The notes under the pieces were generated by a model that searched no databases, had not been told where the DNA came from, and saw only the letters and a program-made list of their open reading frames with translations. Both the position numbers and the translations under genes were made by a program. A stretch of DNA of 64,000 nt from Pelagibius sp. CAU 1746 (GTDB lineage: Bacteria > Pseudomonadota > Alphaproteobacteria > Kiloniellales > Kiloniellaceae): assembly GCF_039839785.1 (NCBI RefSeq), contig NZ_JBDOQT010000001.1, positions 1,984,001 through 2,048,000 of the forward strand, written 5' to 3'. Shown in pieces: positions 1-21,349 of this stretch; position 1 is the first letter of the stretch; each line of letters begins with the position of its first letter.

Positions 1-25
1 GCCCGGCACCGGCGTCGAAGGATTT

Positions 26-772
26 GTGGAGGCTCTCTCGGGGGCCCGCAACACGGCGGAAATCGGGGTCAGGCTGGACGTCGTCCTCAAGGACATGGGC
101 TTCGAGCGCTTCGCCTATGTGCATGTCCGTCCCCCGCTGGGCAAGAAACTGCGCTCTTTCGTGCCGTCCGGCTCGCGCAGCGGCAATCAGGTTCACGAGT
201 TCCTCTCCAGCCTGCCGGATAGCTGGGTCGACTATTATCTCGCTCAGGACTACGGAGACCTGGATCCGACTCTGCAGGCGGCTGTCGGTCGCGTGATGCC
301 CTTTCAGTGGCGTGAGATCGGCTCGCGCAACGACCTGTCCAACGGTCAGCGCAAGGTTCTCGACGAGGCCCGCGACCACGGCATCAGGGACGGCGCCACC
401 ATTCCCATCCACGGTCCCGACAGCGGCCTGTCGACCTTGAGCATCGTCGGCGGCGGCAGCGAGAGCGAATTCCAGGAGGCCTACCGGCGCAGCTATCGCG
501 ACCTGGTCTGGCTGGCCATCAACACGCACCAGGCCTTCCTGAGCCTGGCCGAGAGCGCGCCCGACCAGGGGCGCGTGCGCCTGACCGACCGCGAACGCGA
601 CTGCCTGGTGTGGACGGCACGGGGGAAGACGGCCTGGGAGGTCGGGCAGATCCTCTGCATTTCCGAGGAAACGGTGCTCTTCCACCTGAAGAACGCGACC
701 CGAAAGCTCGGCGTGTTTTCCAAGCACCACGCCGTGGTCAAGGCCGTTATCCAGGGATATATCGTCCCCTAA
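26..772 (+). CDS. LuxR-family acyl-homoserine-lactone-responsive transcriptional regulator
   Basis: Quorum-sensing regulator that binds an acyl-homoserine lactone and activates target promoters. The N-terminal autoinducer domain (about residues 15-165) keeps the family residues: W67 and Y71 in DSWVDYY, D80-P81 in DLDP, W95 in PFQW and Gly in the HGIRDG segment. The C-terminal GerE/LuxR helix-turn-helix starts at LTDRERDCLVW (about residue 190) and includes the conserved WEVGQIL and TVLFHLKNA segments. The GTG at 26 follows GAAGGA with a very short spacer and gives a normal length of 248 residues. The frame stays open to the left edge, so the true start may lie outside the window. The gene sits directly upstream of a LuxI gene on the same strand, which makes it the probable cognate receptor. 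Confidence 0.93.
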   Translation: MEALSGARNTAEIGVRLDVVLKDMGFERFAYVHVRPPLGKKLRSFVPSGSRSGNQVHEFLSSLPDSWVDYYLAQDYGDLDPTLQAAVGRVMPFQWREIGSRNDLSNGQRKVLDEARDHGIRDGATIPIHGPDSGLSTLSIVGGGSESEFQEAYRRSYRDLVWLAINTHQAFLSLAESAPDQGRVRLTDRERDCLVWTARGKTAWEVGQILCISEETVLFHLKNATRKLGVFSKHHAVVKAVIQGYIVP

Positions 773-828: not shown

Positions 829-871
829 GCTGTCGCCTGCTTCGCGCACCCCCCAGTTCTGGGGGGCTGTC
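829..871. repeat. Palindrome-containing element, copy 1 of 2
   Basis: The segment reads GCTGTCGCCTGC, three bases (ttc), GCGCACCCCC, then a palindromic core and GGGGGCT. The same two blocks with the same three-base gap occur at 49592-49632 upstream of cbpM. The shared left flank (22 of 25 bases identical) shows that at least part of the palindrome's context belongs to a dispersed element. That tempers a pure lux-box reading of the core. Confidence 0.5.
849..866. promoter_or_regulatory. Candidate lux box in the luxI promoter
   Basis: CCCCCCAGTTCTGGGGGG is a perfect inverted repeat of 8-base arms around a TT centre. It lies between luxR and luxI, about 70 bases before the chosen luxI start. 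The CCAGTTCTGG core resembles known LuxR-family operators (18-20 bp dyads with CAG/CTG near the centre). If the dyad is centred near -42, transcription would begin around position 900. It could instead be a transcript hairpin, but no T-run follows it. Confidence 0.5.
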
Positions 872-927
872 TCGGCACTTCCCGCGCGCTCCAATCCTCC
901 CGTCAGATGATGGAGGAACGGGCCGCC

Positions 928-1548
928 GTGATCGATGTCGTAACACCGGATCTCTACCCAGCCTACGCCGAAGAGCTGCGGCTCATGTTCCAGCAGCGCT
1001 ATCGCGTCTTCAAACAGCGCCTGGGCTGGAACGTGCCGGCCAGTGGCGGCGAAGAGCGCGACCAGTTCGACGACTACTATCCCATCTACCTGCTGGCCTT
1101 TGACGAGGGGCGCCGCCTGGCGGGCAGTTGGCGCTTCCTGCCGACCACCGGACCCTACATGCTGCGCAATGTCTTTCCCCAACTTCTGTACGGCGCCAAG
1201 GCGCCCTACCATCCGCTGATCTGGGAGGGCAGCCGCTTCGCGGTAGAGGGCAGGGGCATGCGCCGGCGCACCAGCAGCCACCTGCTCTGCGCGGTGACGG
1301 AAACCTGCATCGCCCTCGGCATCCGCGAGCTCATCACCGTCTACGACGCCCGGATGGAGCGTCTGCTGCCGCGCCTCGGCTGTCCGCCGAAGTGGCAGTC
1401 CCGGGCGGCGCGCATCAATGGCGAACTGGCTTACACCGGCCGTTTCGACATGAACCATGCCACGCTGGCCAGCCTGAGATCTGTGGCCGGCATCCAGCAC
1501 TCCGTAGTTCGCAACGCGCCCTTCCATGATGAAGCCGCGGTTGCCTGA
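928..1548 (+). CDS. LuxI-family acyl-homoserine-lactone synthase
   Basis: Makes an N-acyl-homoserine lactone from S-adenosylmethionine and an acyl donor (acyl-ACP or acyl-CoA). With the GTG at 928 the invariant family residues fall at canonical numbers: R24, F28 and W34 in RYRVFKQRLGW, D45 and D48 in DQFD, R69, F83, and E100 and R103 in WEGSRF. A GGAGG at 912-916 lies at good distance from this GTG, while the upstream ATGs at 907 and 910 have no ribosome site; this decides the start. Length 206 residues is normal. Sequence alone does not give the acyl chain, but an acyl-CoA ligase gene further down the operon makes a CoA-linked donor worth considering. A short gap (57 bases) separates it from the next gene. 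Confidence 0.95.
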   Translation: MIDVVTPDLYPAYAEELRLMFQQRYRVFKQRLGWNVPASGGEERDQFDDYYPIYLLAFDEGRRLAGSWRFLPTTGPYMLRNVFPQLLYGAKAPYHPLIWEGSRFAVEGRGMRRRTSSHLLCAVTETCIALGIRELITVYDARMERLLPRLGCPPKWQSRAARINGELAYTGRFDMNHATLASLRSVAGIQHSVVRNAPFHDEAAVA

Positions 1549-1605
1549 CCGTGACCCCCATGGCTCTCCGGCAAAGAGCCGCTGATTGAGATGAAGGAGG
1601 ACAAG

Positions 1606-1866
1606 ATGTCTGAGAAAAATGGTCCGATCGAACTGAAACTCTTGGATCCGCTGCAGGATGCGGCGGCGATCAAGAGATGCCTCGAATACCTGCGTATCGA
1701 GGCCGGACGCACGGGATTGCATTTCGCGGCGCACCTGATCGGCGTTGCCGCGGAAGCGGTATCCGACTCCATCGCGCTGTCGGAAAAGTCTCTGGCCAAA
1801 GTCGACCGCGACGGCACGGCGCGGTTCTCTCCGGCCTCCATCAGCGAGATAACCCGGCGGCATTGA
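1606..1866 (+). CDS. Small hypothetical protein following luxI
   Basis: An 86-residue soluble, mixed-charge protein with no motif I recognise. The central part (about residues 18-62, around LKLLDPLQDAAAIKRC and LHFAAHLIGVAAEAV) looks alpha-helical. AAGGAGG at 1594-1600 sits just ahead of the ATG at 1606, so I prefer this start to the ATG at 1591, which overlaps the ribosome site. It lies 57 bases behind luxI and 70 bases before the P450 gene on the same strand, so it is probably co-transcribed with both. Possible roles are a modulator of the synthase or an accessory protein for the pathway; both are guesses from position only. Confidence 0.72.
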   Translation: MSEKNGPIELKLLDPLQDAAAIKRCLEYLRIEAGRTGLHFAAHLIGVAAEAVSDSIALSEKSLAKVDRDGTARFSPASISEITRRH

Positions 1867-1936: not shown

Positions 1937-3349
1937 ATGAGCTTGGCTTTCGATCACGCAACCGAAGACCTTGTCGCCGGCCGTCGCGGCGAGGCGGCGG
2001 CCGTTGCCCCGGCGAAGCTGAAGGGACGTCCTCTTCTGGGCGTGCTGCCGGAGTTGCGCGCCGACCCCTTGCGGTTCTTCACCCGTGTCGCGCGCGACCA
2101 TGGCGATGCGGTCGAGCTGTCCGTCGGCCCCGACAGGGTTCTGATGCTGAACAGCCCGTCGATGATCCGCCACGTGTTGCAGGACAATCGCCTGAACTAT
2201 GAGAAGAGCAAGTTCTACGACGTTCTGCGCTCCATCCTGGGCGACGGCATCTTTCTGGCCGAAGGCGAGGAATGGCTGTCCCAGCGCAAGACCGCCGGGC
2301 GCAGTTTCCAGGGTTGCCAGCTGCGCAGCATGACCGCGTCCATGCAGGAGGCGGTGGCCGACCTGGAGCGTCGCTGGTCGGACCTGGCGGCCCGAAGGAC
2401 GGTCGTCGACGTGATCCCGGAGATGATGCGCCTCACCCTCGACATCCTCATGAGTACGCTTTTCAGCCTGCGTCTCGAAGACCGGCATGAAGAGGTTTTT
2501 CGCGCGCTGACGGTGATTCTGCAGGATGCCGAGAAGCGTATCTGGTCGCCGCTCGGCTTGCCGCGCTGGCTGCCGACCCGGCGTAACCGCGAGGTGCGCG
2601 CTGCGCTCGCCAGCTTCGACCGTTTCGTTCTGGATTTGGTGGCCGCGCGGCGCGCCGCACCGCCGCGCGGGGAGGGCGCCGAGAGCGACCTGCTCGACCT
2701 ACTGCTGGCGAACCAGAACGGCCGCAGCGACCGCCAGCTTTGCGGGCAGATCCAGTCGATGATCCTGGCCGGCCACGAGACCACGGCCAACGCCTTGACC
2801 TGGTGCTGGTATCTGTTGTCGCTGCATCCGGAATCCCTGCGCCGCCTGCGCGGTGAGGCCCGCGCGGTGCTGAACGGACGCATGGCCGGCTTCGCCGAAC
2901 TGCCGGCGCTGAAATACACGCGCATGGTCTTCGACGAGTCCCTGCGTCTCTATCCGCCGCTGTGGACCTTCTCGCGCACCGCGGTCGCCGACGACCGCAT
3001 CGACGGCCTGCAGGTGCCCGCCGGCACCAACGTCATGCTGAACATGTTCGCCGTGCACCGCCGGCCTGAACTGTGGGACAATCCCGAAGGCTTCGACCCC
3101 GCCCGCTTCGATACGGAATCGGCCGATGCGGCGGGGCAGCGTTTCGCCTACTTCCCCTTCAGCGACGGCCCGCGCACCTGTCTGGGCGAGCGCTTCGCGG
3201 TGCTGGAGTCCATGATCGCCATCTCGGCCATCGTGCAGCGCTTCGACCTGCAACTGCTGCCCGGCCAGAACGTCGAGCCGGAGCCGATGATCACGCTGCG
3301 CCCGCGCGGGCCGCTGCTGATGCGGATCTGCCCGGCGCCGGCCGCCTGA
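1937..3349 (+). CDS. Cytochrome P450
   Basis: Haem-thiolate monooxygenase of 470 residues. Visible hallmarks in order: C-helix EEWLSQRK (about 111-118), I-helix oxygen-binding motif AGHETT (278-283), ExxR motif ESLR (334-337), the PERF-like region GFDPARFD (385-392), and the haem loop FPFSDGPRTCLGERF with ligand C415. The overall pattern resembles bacterial CYP4-like or fatty-acid-hydroxylase-type P450s more than terpene-type enzymes, but the substrate cannot be read from sequence. GGGGAGAAGACCG precedes the ATG. No ferredoxin or reductase gene lies in the window, so electrons must come from partners elsewhere. Position behind luxI and before an exporter and an acyl-CoA ligase suggests it oxidises the acyl precursor or the product of this operon. 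Confidence 0.95.
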   Translation: MSLAFDHATEDLVAGRRGEAAAVAPAKLKGRPLLGVLPELRADPLRFFTRVARDHGDAVELSVGPDRVLMLNSPSMIRHVLQDNRLNYEKSKFYDVLRSILGDGIFLAEGEEWLSQRKTAGRSFQGCQLRSMTASMQEAVADLERRWSDLAARRTVVDVIPEMMRLTLDILMSTLFSLRLEDRHEEVFRALTVILQDAEKRIWSPLGLPRWLPTRRNREVRAALASFDRFVLDLVAARRAAPPRGEGAESDLLDLLLANQNGRSDRQLCGQIQSMILAGHETTANALTWCWYLLSLHPESLRRLRGEARAVLNGRMAGFAELPALKYTRMVFDESLRLYPPLWTFSRTAVADDRIDGLQVPAGTNVMLNMFAVHRRPELWDNPEGFDPARFDTESADAAGQRFAYFPFSDGPRTCLGERFAVLESMIAISAIVQRFDLQLLPGQNVEPEPMITLRPRGPLLMRICPAPAA

Positions 3350-3367
3350 CCGCCGGGAGCCCGAAGC

Positions 3368-4531
3368 ATGCCCGTCCCGATGCTGATCGCGCTCGCCTAT
3401 CTGGTGGGCTTGGGGATCGTCTATCCCTTTCTGCCGTTTCAGGCGCTGGCGCTGGGTGCGAGTCCGCTGACCGTTTCCCTGCTGCTGGTCACCGATACCG
3501 TCGTGGTGCTGCTGCTGGCGCCGGTCTGGGGCCGGCTCAGCGACCGCTTGGGGCGGCGGCGGGTGATCTTCCTGGCCATGGCGACGGCGCCTTTCGCCAA
3601 TCTGCTGCTGGCCCATGCCGACGGCCTGGCGCTGCTGTTCCTGGCGCGGGCCTGCGCCGGCGTCAGCAATGCCGCGATCCCGGTGATCCAGGCGCTGGTC
3701 GCCGACCGAACTTCTACGCAGACCCGGGTCTGGGGCATGGCCAATGTGAACGCAGCTTATGGGCTGGCTTTCATCATCGGGCCGCTGTTGGGCCGGCAGT
3801 TGCTTGGCGCCGGCGGCGACGACTACCACGGCGCCGCGCTGGGGGCCGCAGGCTTCGCGGTGCTGTCGATCCTCTTGACGCTGCTGCTCGGGGCGGATGC
3901 CGGGCGGCCCCCTGGGCAGCCCCTGTCGGCGCACCTCAGAGTGTCCTCACGGCGCATCGTCATGGCGCCGCTCTGCTTCGCCCCGATCGCGCTTATGGCC
4001 GTACTGTCCTTCGTCTACGCCTCCATGGATTCGACCCTGGGGTTATGGTCGCAGCGTGTCCTGGACTGGGATGCGCGCGACGTCTCGCTGGCCTTCACCC
4101 TGGCCGGCGCCTCGGCGGTCTTCAGTCTCTGGGTGCTGATCCCGAAGCTCTGCCGGCGTTACGGGGAAGGGCGGGTGACCGCCGGGGCCAGCGCCGCCAT
4201 GGGCGTGGGTTTCCTGCTCTTCGTGCTGTGGCCCGGCGACCTCGCGGTCGCCCTGGCGCTGATGCTGCTGGGCGCGGGCATTGCCATGTGCCTGTCCTGC
4301 CTGCAATCGCTGCTGTCGAAAGCCACGCCGGATGGCGTGCAGGGCTCCGCCATGGGCCTCAATCACGCGGTGCTCAGCTTCGCGCGCATCCTGGGGCCGG
4401 TCTGGGGGGGCTTCGCCCTCGGCAGCCTTGGCGTCGGCTGGCCGTACCTCGTCGGCGCGCTGCTGACCTTCGTCGCGCTGGCCGTGGTGATCTGGATCTA
4501 CCGGCCCGAAGCGCGCGCGCAGCCGGGCTGA
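3368..4531 (+). CDS. MFS transporter, DHA1-like exporter
   Basis: Integral inner-membrane protein of 387 residues with about twelve hydrophobic segments. The loop after the second segment carries the major-facilitator motif A (GRLSDRLGRRRV, about residues 55-66), and later motif-C-like Gly-rich stretches (YGLAFIIGPLLG) point to a proton-driven drug or metabolite exporter. It begins 18 bases after the P450 stop and ends 27 bases before the acyl-CoA ligase. An exporter inside a quorum-sensing biosynthetic operon most simply removes the finished small molecule or gives self-protection. The substrate is unknown. Confidence 0.88.
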   Translation: MPVPMLIALAYLVGLGIVYPFLPFQALALGASPLTVSLLLVTDTVVVLLLAPVWGRLSDRLGRRRVIFLAMATAPFANLLLAHADGLALLFLARACAGVSNAAIPVIQALVADRTSTQTRVWGMANVNAAYGLAFIIGPLLGRQLLGAGGDDYHGAALGAAGFAVLSILLTLLLGADAGRPPGQPLSAHLRVSSRRIVMAPLCFAPIALMAVLSFVYASMDSTLGLWSQRVLDWDARDVSLAFTLAGASAVFSLWVLIPKLCRRYGEGRVTAGASAAMGVGFLLFVLWPGDLAVALALMLLGAGIAMCLSCLQSLLSKATPDGVQGSAMGLNHAVLSFARILGPVWGGFALGSLGVGWPYLVGALLTFVALAVVIWIYRPEARAQPG

Positions 4532-4558
4532 GTCCCGTCGCAAGAGGGAGAGAGAGTC

Positions 4559-6133
4559 ATGTCGAACGTCGCGTCCTTTCTCGACAGCGCTGCCGCGCGG
4601 CAGCCGCGGGCCCAGGCGCTGATCCACGAGGGGCGAAGCTTCGATTTCGCTCAGTTGCGGAGCATGGCCGGCCAGGTGGCCAACGGCCTGCGGGCGGCGG
4701 GCTACGGCCCTGGCAGCCGCATCGCGCTGGCCTGCGGCAACCGGCCGGGCTTCCTCGCCGCCTACTACGGCATCTTGAAGATCGGTGGCCTGGCGGTGGT
4801 GCTGAGCACCACGCTGCGTGAGCGCGACATCCGCTTCCAGCTTGAGGATTCCGGCGCCGAGGCCCTGCTGACCTACGACGGCCCGGCAGGTGCTCCGGGC
4901 GATGCCAGCTACGGCGAGCAGGCCCTGGCCGCCGCCGAGGCCGCAGCGGCCTGCCGGCAGGCCTGGGTCATTCCCGCCGACATCGCCGCAGCCTCGCCCA
5001 TCGCCGGCACTCGGGCGCTCAGCGACCTCATGGCGGGGCAGCCGGATCACGCGCGGACCCACGGCTATGCGGCCGATGCTACCGCGGTGCTGCTCTACAC
5101 CTCCGGCTCCACCGGCCGCCCGAAAGGCGTCGAACTGACCCAGGCGAACCTGCTCGCCATGACCCGCATCAACCAGGCCCTGGCGCCGCGCGCGAGCACC
5201 CGGGTGCGGCTCATCTCGACGCCGCTGTTCCACGTCATGGGCCAGGTCTGCGGGCTCAACCTGGCCATGCTGAACGGCGAGACCCTGGTGCTGGTCGAAG
5301 GCTTCGACCCGGCGCAGATCTGGCGGCTGATCGTCGAGCGGAACGTCAGCTACTTCGTGCATATGCCGATCTACTACCAGTATCTCATGGAGCGCGCCGA
5401 CGGCGTCGACACCGCGGCGGTGCGGGCCTCCTTGCGCCTCTGCGCCACCGGCGGCGCGCCATTGCAGGCGGGCCTGTCGGAGGCCTTCGCCGAGCGCTTC
5501 GGCCTGCCCATCGTGCCCGGCTACGGCCTCACCGAAGCGTCTTCGATCGTCGCCTGGGGCGGGACACGGGACGGCGGCTCGGTGCTGTCGGGACGGGGCC
5601 TCAGGCCCACCACGGTCGGCCCGGCGGTGCCGGGCGTCGAGGTGGCGCTGGAGGCGGGCGGCGCCCTGAGCGCCCTGCCGGGCGCCCAGGGCGAGATCCT
5701 GCTGCGCGGACCGGGGGTGATGAAGGGCTACCTCAACCTGCCCGAGGTCACCGCACGGACGCTGCGTGGCGGTTGGCTCAGGACCGGCGATATCGGCCGC
5801 TTCGACGAGGCCGGGCGCCTCGACATCCTGGGCCGCGCCGACGACAAGATCCTGCGCGGCGAGGAGCATATCTACCCGGCCGAGGTGGAGGCGGTGCTGA
5901 AGGCCCATCCAGCGGTCGCCGAGGCGGCGGTGATCGGCGTGCCCGACGACTACCTGGGTCAGGAGGCCAAGACCTTCGTGGTGCTGCGTGACGGCTGCAG
6001 CCTGGCCGCGGAAGACCTGCTCGGCTGGCTGGCGCGCGAGCTGCCCGACGGCAAGTGCCCGGGACTGGTCGAGTTCCAGGCGGCGCTGCCCCTGACCCCT
6101 ACCGGCAAGGTGGCGCGCCACCTGCTGTACTAG
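4559..6133 (+). CDS. AMP-forming acyl-CoA synthetase (fatty or aryl acid CoA ligase)
   Basis: ANL-superfamily adenylating enzyme of 524 residues that activates a carboxylic acid with ATP and joins it to CoA. Seen: P-loop-like LLYTSGSTGRPKG (about 177-189), A5 motif GYGLTEAS, the GWLRTGDIG motif, hinge region DILGRADDKILRGEEHIYP, and the C-terminal catalytic lysine K517 in LTPTGKVA. GAGGGAGAGAGAG precedes the ATG. As last gene of the luxI operon it could supply an acyl-CoA for the LuxI synthase, as in the aryl-HSL systems where a CoA-linked acid is the donor, or feed the P450 pathway. Whether the acid is aliphatic or aromatic is not decided by these motifs. Confidence 0.93.
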   Translation: MSNVASFLDSAAARQPRAQALIHEGRSFDFAQLRSMAGQVANGLRAAGYGPGSRIALACGNRPGFLAAYYGILKIGGLAVVLSTTLRERDIRFQLEDSGAEALLTYDGPAGAPGDASYGEQALAAAEAAAACRQAWVIPADIAAASPIAGTRALSDLMAGQPDHARTHGYAADATAVLLYTSGSTGRPKGVELTQANLLAMTRINQALAPRASTRVRLISTPLFHVMGQVCGLNLAMLNGETLVLVEGFDPAQIWRLIVERNVSYFVHMPIYYQYLMERADGVDTAAVRASLRLCATGGAPLQAGLSEAFAERFGLPIVPGYGLTEASSIVAWGGTRDGGSVLSGRGLRPTTVGPAVPGVEVALEAGGALSALPGAQGEILLRGPGVMKGYLNLPEVTARTLRGGWLRTGDIGRFDEAGRLDILGRADDKILRGEEHIYPAEVEAVLKAHPAVAEAAVIGVPDDYLGQEAKTFVVLRDGCSLAAEDLLGWLARELPDGKCPGLVEFQAALPLTPTGKVARHLLY

Positions 6134-20845: not shown

Positions 20846-21349
20846 CTAGTCGCCGACCGTCTTCACCAGGGCATAGATCTGCCGCCGCACGTTGGGATCG
20901 GAAATCCGGTTATAGGCCTGGATCAGTTTCAGCGTATCGCTCTTGCCCAACAAGGCCCCGACCTGCGCGTCGGAGCCCGCTTCGCCGTCGCTGCCGGCCG
21001 CTTCCGGCGCCGGGGCCTCGCCGTCGGCCGGAATGCCCTGGAAGAAATAGCCGACGGGCACGCGCAGCACTTGGGACAATTGAAACAGGCGGCTGGCGAA
21101 GATGCGGTTGGTGCCGCGTTCGTATTTCTGAATCTGCTGGAAGGTGATGCCGAGGGCGCGGGCCAGTGTCTCCTGGCTGAAGCCCATGGCCAGGCGGCGC
21201 AGGCGGAGGCGAGATCCGATGGCGATGTCGATGGGATCTGGCGTCGGGGAAGAAGGGCGTGGTTTTCCGGTCACTCTCTGGATCTCTGTTGGCAGTTCGA
21301 CCCAGCGGCGATGGGTGAAAAACGGGCTTTTTACTGGCAATGTCGGCAT
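20846..21349 (-). CDS. XRE-family helix-turn-helix regulator
   Basis: A 167-residue DNA-binding protein. The HTH_3 domain (about 40-95) reads IGSRLRLRRLAMGFSQETLA then ITFQQIQKYERGTNRI and LFQLSQVLRVPVGYFF, a pattern seen in a widespread alphaproteobacterial XRE group whose members act in stress and envelope control. The C-terminal part (RISDPNVRRQIYALVKTV) is the short conserved tail of the same group. Its N-terminal 35 residues are basic and may be dispensable; a start nearer the domain is possible. A TTAACCAT octamer lies 80 bases upstream. Confidence 0.85.
   Translation of the reverse strand: MPTLPVKSPFFTHRRWVELPTEIQRVTGKPRPSSPTPDPIDIAIGSRLRLRRLAMGFSQETLARALGITFQQIQKYERGTNRIFASRLFQLSQVLRVPVGYFFQGIPADGEAPAPEAAGSDGEAGSDAQVGALLGKSDTLKLIQAYNRISDPNVRRQIYALVKTVGD

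Follow-up and report, generated by a model that had tools for sequence, protein, structure and literature searches.

A small gene behind luxI in Pelagibius encodes a predicted helical hairpin, a candidate antagonist of PraR-type XRE regulators

Proteins encoded in the position directly behind a luxI-type gene (the luxI slot) have been linked to XRE-type regulators in two cases, which so far stand as separate published reports. CinR of Rhizobium leguminosarum switches on cinIS; CinS, which is co-transcribed with cinI, is presented in the accessible portions of PMC4149787 as an anti-repressor that binds the XRE-type regulator PraR and blocks its DNA binding; the same source draws a parallel to SinI/SinR of Bacillus subtilis. 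In Methylobacterium fujisawaense, according to the available parts of PMC10790750, MmaP is co-transcribed with mmaI and pulls down with PraR. Among the titles and abstract openings searched, there was no report of the Pelagibius gene described here or of a class-wide family of luxI-slot proteins.

The DNA analysed in this study (the window) is a stretch of 64,000 nucleotides from Pelagibius sp. CAU 1746, corresponding to positions 1984001-2048000 of contig C1 in a genome of 4.66 Mb. At its start lies a quorum-sensing cassette (Table 1) in which genes for an XRE regulator, LuxR, LuxI, a small protein, a P450, an MFS transporter and an acyl-CoA ligase follow one another in a single direction, and this order is fixed in 8/8 Pelagibius genomes. 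Our preferred reading, to which we give close to an even chance, is that quorum sensing induces the small protein, which then antagonises a PraR-type XRE and so works like CinS and MmaP. The reading draws on the position, predicted fold and neighbours of the gene, and on the binding of PraR by CinS and MmaP from the same slot; its strongest support is the slot and the cassette.

Table 1. Features of the Pelagibius cassette and related XRE genes; positions are those of the window unless a contig or locus is named
Feature	Position	Strand	Remarks
luxR-adjacent PraR-type XRE	G000:C1:1983329-1983778 (= L139:8329-8778)		Outside the window, ends before its start
luxR, AHL receptor	1-772	+	PF03472 and PF00196; 5′ end lies before the window
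Lux-box-like palindrome CCCCCCAGTTCTGGGGGG	849-866	+	Upstream of luxI
luxI, acyl-homoserine-lactone synthase	907-1548	+	PF00765, E 5.7e-32
Shine-Dalgarno AAGGAGG	1594-1600	+	ATG of the small gene 5 bases on
Small gene	1606-1866	+	86-residue predicted helical hairpin (AF2), purifying selection; predicted antagonist of a PraR-type XRE
Cytochrome P450	1937-3349	+	PF00067; next cassette gene after the small gene
MFS transporter	3368-4531	+	Pfam search; order in Pelagibius genomes
AMP-binding acyl-CoA ligase	4559-6133	+	Pfam and NCBIfam searches; order in Pelagibius genomes
Further PraR-type XRE	20846-21349	-	Within the window
PraR orthologue by synteny, xre	L151:5315-5794	-	
metK beside it	L151:4005-5177	-	
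trmB beside it	L151:3265-3972	-	

The open reading frame is a real gene under purifying selection, as judged from its strong Shine-Dalgarno sequence, its pattern of substitution and its retention in all eight Pelagibius genomes, our own included. Compared with six named loci, pN/pS is 0.27-0.39 along its full length and falls to 0.10-0.18 in the core, residues 13-60. An alternative in-frame ATG occurs at 1591; however, the placement of the Shine-Dalgarno sequence, which is likewise present in L139 and L247, favours the start given in Table 1. The gene is separated by 57 bases from the luxI stop and by 70 bases from the P450 gene, and it occupies this place in 8/8 Pelagibius genomes. The original prediction, made from the sequence, had described an 86-residue protein with a strong ribosome site 57 bases after luxI that matches no recognised family, and all of these points hold: searches of Pfam and NCBIfam at E<=1, and of PHROGs, returned nothing for the protein. 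Its stated dissimilarity to RsaL, RsaM and QslA was likewise upheld. The Pfam and NCBIfam libraries include models for RsaL, RsaM, QslA, TraM and QseM; none of these was matched at the same threshold, which led us to reject a protein of such a type. Homologues at E<=0.1 were found in 18/41 genomes, a count in which several of the weakest matches are long open reading frames that we do not accept as relatives; close relatives in the named collection belong to Pelagibius and Kiloniellaceae, and the plasmid collection held no relative.

Upstream of luxI, 40 bases before its ATG at 907, is the lux-box-like palindrome, and related palindromes or near-palindromes are found at about the same site in other Pelagibius loci, in a Kiloniellaceae MAG and in L130. 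(The luxI gene might instead start at a GTG at 928, which is better conserved.) The 16-base core of the palindrome has one exact copy in the genome, together with one site with a single mismatch; when up to two mismatches are allowed, the window alone holds one match vs 0.83 expected, which is not above chance. The palindrome is probably the LuxR operator for both luxI and the small gene, to which LuxR would bind. Because the sole exact site of this kind precedes luxI, the row of genes behind it has just one other regulator-like product, the small protein. The genome has a single detected LuxI. In the upstream flank, genes for an ECF sigma factor and a histidine kinase were recognised by sequence reading.

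From a 23-sequence alignment, AF2 predicts two helices (residues 15-35 and 39-72), with block pLDDT values of 96-99 in the core and a disordered tail past residue 72. The helical hairpin is predicted with confidence, and no DNA-binding domain was recognised in the protein. Although the tail (window 1822-1863) is predicted to be disordered, its extreme C-terminus is conserved as RH or RLH; this motif forms the last two to three residues in 10/10 tabulated loci and is possibly a contact or a degradation tag. Fold comparison with the PDB was uninformative (best Foldseek E 1.8), and the structures matched by VIA-align, at Z values up to 8.0, were long helical hairpins, PspA among them. A profile match to MazE7 (E 5.5e-4) was set aside as Ala-rich helix similarity.

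Some LuxR-type proteins are kept in check by helical antiactivators, and a helical protein encoded behind luxR and luxI, with no recognised enzyme or DNA-binding domain, could bind LuxR itself in the manner of TraM or QslA and so set the threshold of the circuit. We consider this unlikely, given that the Pfam and NCBIfam searches found no match, that distant family members lie in loci with neither luxR nor luxI in view, and that both slot proteins studied so far, CinS and MmaP, act on PraR in the published accounts available. By analogy with those two proteins, the target is likely to be a PraR-type XRE rather than the AHL level or LuxR.

How closely the family is tied to luxI was addressed with a 16-member profile searched in 385 Alphaproteobacteria genomes, blind to luxI. 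Matches at E<=0.01 occurred in 18 of the 385, and twelve places had E<1e-4, six of them directly behind luxI (our own locus, L022, L023, L026, L031 and L039). The same genomes hold luxI at 69 places in 55 genomes. For a second count the slot was taken as the 350 bases that follow luxI, read on the luxI strand, and a 23-member profile was applied with a 7-bit cut set post hoc: 19/69 luxI genes had a family-like open reading frame in the slot vs 4 matches in the remainder of these 270 kb. Of the 19, six belong to the profile, and the other 13, from eight families, score only 7-17 bits; the scores of L056, L049b, L048, L074, L061 and L059 are each equalled or exceeded by only 2/3154 real-protein windows. 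In f58, a family guessed to be Azospirillaceae, the luxI loci gave no match to the small-protein family.

The original prediction had proposed either a dedicated regulator or an accessory to the synthase or its pathway, and had asked whether homologues always lie beside luxI; our results support it in part. Close homologues do adjoin luxI, in 9/9 named loci, and six of the twelve best class-wide places are directly behind it. Distant members (L111-L119, L122 and L124) have no luxI, so that the counter-evidence named in that prediction, homologues away from luxI, is partly present; their neighbours, named by sequence reading, include YcaO/TfuA-like, cyclase-like and DnaK genes. A dedicated regulator is plausible, with PraR-type XREs as the candidate target class. 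Among the luxI-less loci, L112-L115, L117 and L119 have a member beside YcaO-like, TfuA-like or large cyclase-like genes (TfuA-like or YcaO-like in L112, L114, L117 and L119) and also a small open reading frame with 'RGADG..Y'; as read from their gene content, these loci look like RiPP-type loci. In L113 and L115 a PraR-type XRE lies about 3.6 kb from the luxI-less family member.

In the accessory half of that proposal, the protein would help the synthase or the P450/ligase pathway, for example as a scaffold or in a carrier-like role. The P450/MFS/ligase set (1937-6133) resembles a biosynthetic set under quorum control, or one for modification of the signal, and the order luxI-small gene-P450 recurs across several families (L042, L044, L046, L050, L061, L074 and L077), with the MFS and ligase genes next in Pelagibius. 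Yet family-like open reading frames also stand behind luxI where no P450 was seen (L045, L048, L056, L059, L063 and others), orphan members are found apart from pathways of this kind, and Pfam and NCBIfam gave no carrier-protein match, so that a pathway accessory seems to us improbable.

Regulators of the PraR type are available to an antagonist in Pelagibius. The genome encodes three full-length PraR-type XREs, along with two weaker matches, and all three are also present in the other seven Pelagibius genomes searched. One lies immediately upstream of luxR in 8/8 genomes, the Pelagibius copies being 86-92% identical to the first of six aligned, and in 8/8 genomes another copy lies 19-21 kb from it. 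The third is the PraR orthologue by synteny, on the xre-metK-trmB arrangement used as the criterion for orthology in the accessible text of PMC10790750, metK and trmB having been named here from sequence reading. The mere presence of a PraR-type XRE is weak evidence, because such regulators are nearly universal (35/35 genomes). PraR-type XREs lie near luxI in 15/140 alphaproteobacterial loci, eight of the 15 in Rhizobiaceae, vs a rough chance estimate, reckoned by hand, of fewer than one locus. No XRE was seen within the retrieved stretches of the strong non-Pelagibius luxI-small gene loci L127-L130. In nine Rhizobiaceae-like loci (L214, L215, L216, L218, L231, L233, L236, L239 and L240) PraR-type XREs adjoin luxI; three of these hold two XREs beside it, and several have an open reading frame of 61-65 residues behind it.

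The neighbouring XRE also allows a scheme in which the small protein, the XRE and LuxR form a three-part activator, and this we rank as the least probable, because although phage LuxR and XRE proteins jointly activate promoters, with a small open reading frame as the output in ARM81ld (available parts of PMC9894119 and PMC13345283), and the XRE-luxR-luxI order of the phage modules is matched in Pelagibius, no phage or viral relative of the small protein was found in our searches, which makes a phage origin improbable, the flanks read as chromosomal with no phage genes seen beside the locus, and some luxI-slot members of the family have no XRE close by.

Some slot proteins resemble part of the putative target. 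The C-terminal hairpins of 12 PraR-type XREs were built into a profile, and slot proteins were scored with it beside 3154 background windows: L072 reached 19.8 bits and L081 11.8 bits, each with 0/3154 background windows as high, and P0003 gave a weaker 8.3 bits, with 2/3154 as high. P0003 is the slot protein of an M. radiotolerans plasmid luxI locus, which we do not equate with mmaI. On this similarity the three look like stand-alone XRE tails, an arrangement like that of SinI and SinR. Small XRE-tail-like open reading frames directly behind luxI were noted in L072 (G346:C4), L081 (G258:C65) and L256:3694-3864. For the Pelagibius protein (P0001) the profile search reported no score. In the Pelagibius XRE, AF2 places a C-terminal helix pair with low confidence.

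If the small protein is an XRE antagonist, the following sequence of events can be envisaged. As AHL accumulates, LuxR would bind the palindrome and luxI and the small gene would be induced together. The small protein, a soluble hairpin, would then bind a PraR-type XRE repressor, probably at its C-terminal two-helix tail, the most likely target being either the XRE whose gene immediately precedes luxR or, from the xre-metK-trmB locus, the true PraR. The XRE would be kept from acting on DNA, the genes it represses would come on at high cell density, and the quorum signal would be relayed one step further. The present data show the gene and its predicted fold, the cassette with its palindrome, the family with its luxI slot, and the XREs; co-transcription, LuxR control, XRE binding and the sign of the effect are all points that we infer. 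A broader and rather doubtful extension is that the alphaproteobacterial luxI slot is a general relay, filled by unrelated or very diverged hairpins, some of them stand-alone PraR-type XRE tails, through which activation by LuxR would free an XRE regulon from repression; in that case the Pelagibius protein would be a well-conserved branch locked to the XRE of its own cassette. Should the slot commonly hold an XRE antagonist, lux boxes alone would be insufficient to read many alphaproteobacterial quorum regulons, and XRE sites would have to be searched for them. A compact test case is the Pelagibius cassette, with one LuxI, one exact lux-box-like site and one adjacent XRE.

Finally, we compare the Pelagibius gene with the described systems. 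Both cinS (WP_017961378.1, L241:3663-3866) and the small gene come immediately after a luxI gene that is itself preceded by luxR, and both systems include a PraR orthologue. The differences are that CinS has 67 residues vs 86, that cinI and cinS overlap at stop and start in place of the 57-base gap of Pelagibius, and that P450 and XRE genes are not annotated in L241, unlike in the Pelagibius cassette. Against the family profile CinS scores 0.3 bits, with 111/500 shuffles and 373/3154 real-protein windows as high, and 114/3154 windows are as high after one profile extension; because this is no better than chance, we do not claim family membership or common descent. A search with CinS in four genomes of one Rhizobium-like genus, run without a positive control, found nothing. 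The Rhizobiaceae slot protein L204, which resembles CinS by eye only, is matched against the family profile by 3/500 shuffles and 5/3154 windows.

SinI resembles the tail of SinR. In the SinI/SinR pair a small antagonist acts on a repressor broadly comparable to the one proposed as target in Pelagibius. The Pelagibius protein received no reported score with the XRE-tail profile; other luxI-slot proteins did. MmaP, compared here by its published description only, is likewise small, without recognised domains and tied to a luxI gene; it has 59 residues vs 86, and quorum sensing in M. fujisawaense lowers swarming (available parts of PMC10790750). Prophage modules of Phaeobacter share the xre-luxR-luxI order with Pelagibius, but they are phage-borne and carry a counter-oriented hth gene, and the accessible text of PMC13345283 does not describe a small gene behind luxI.
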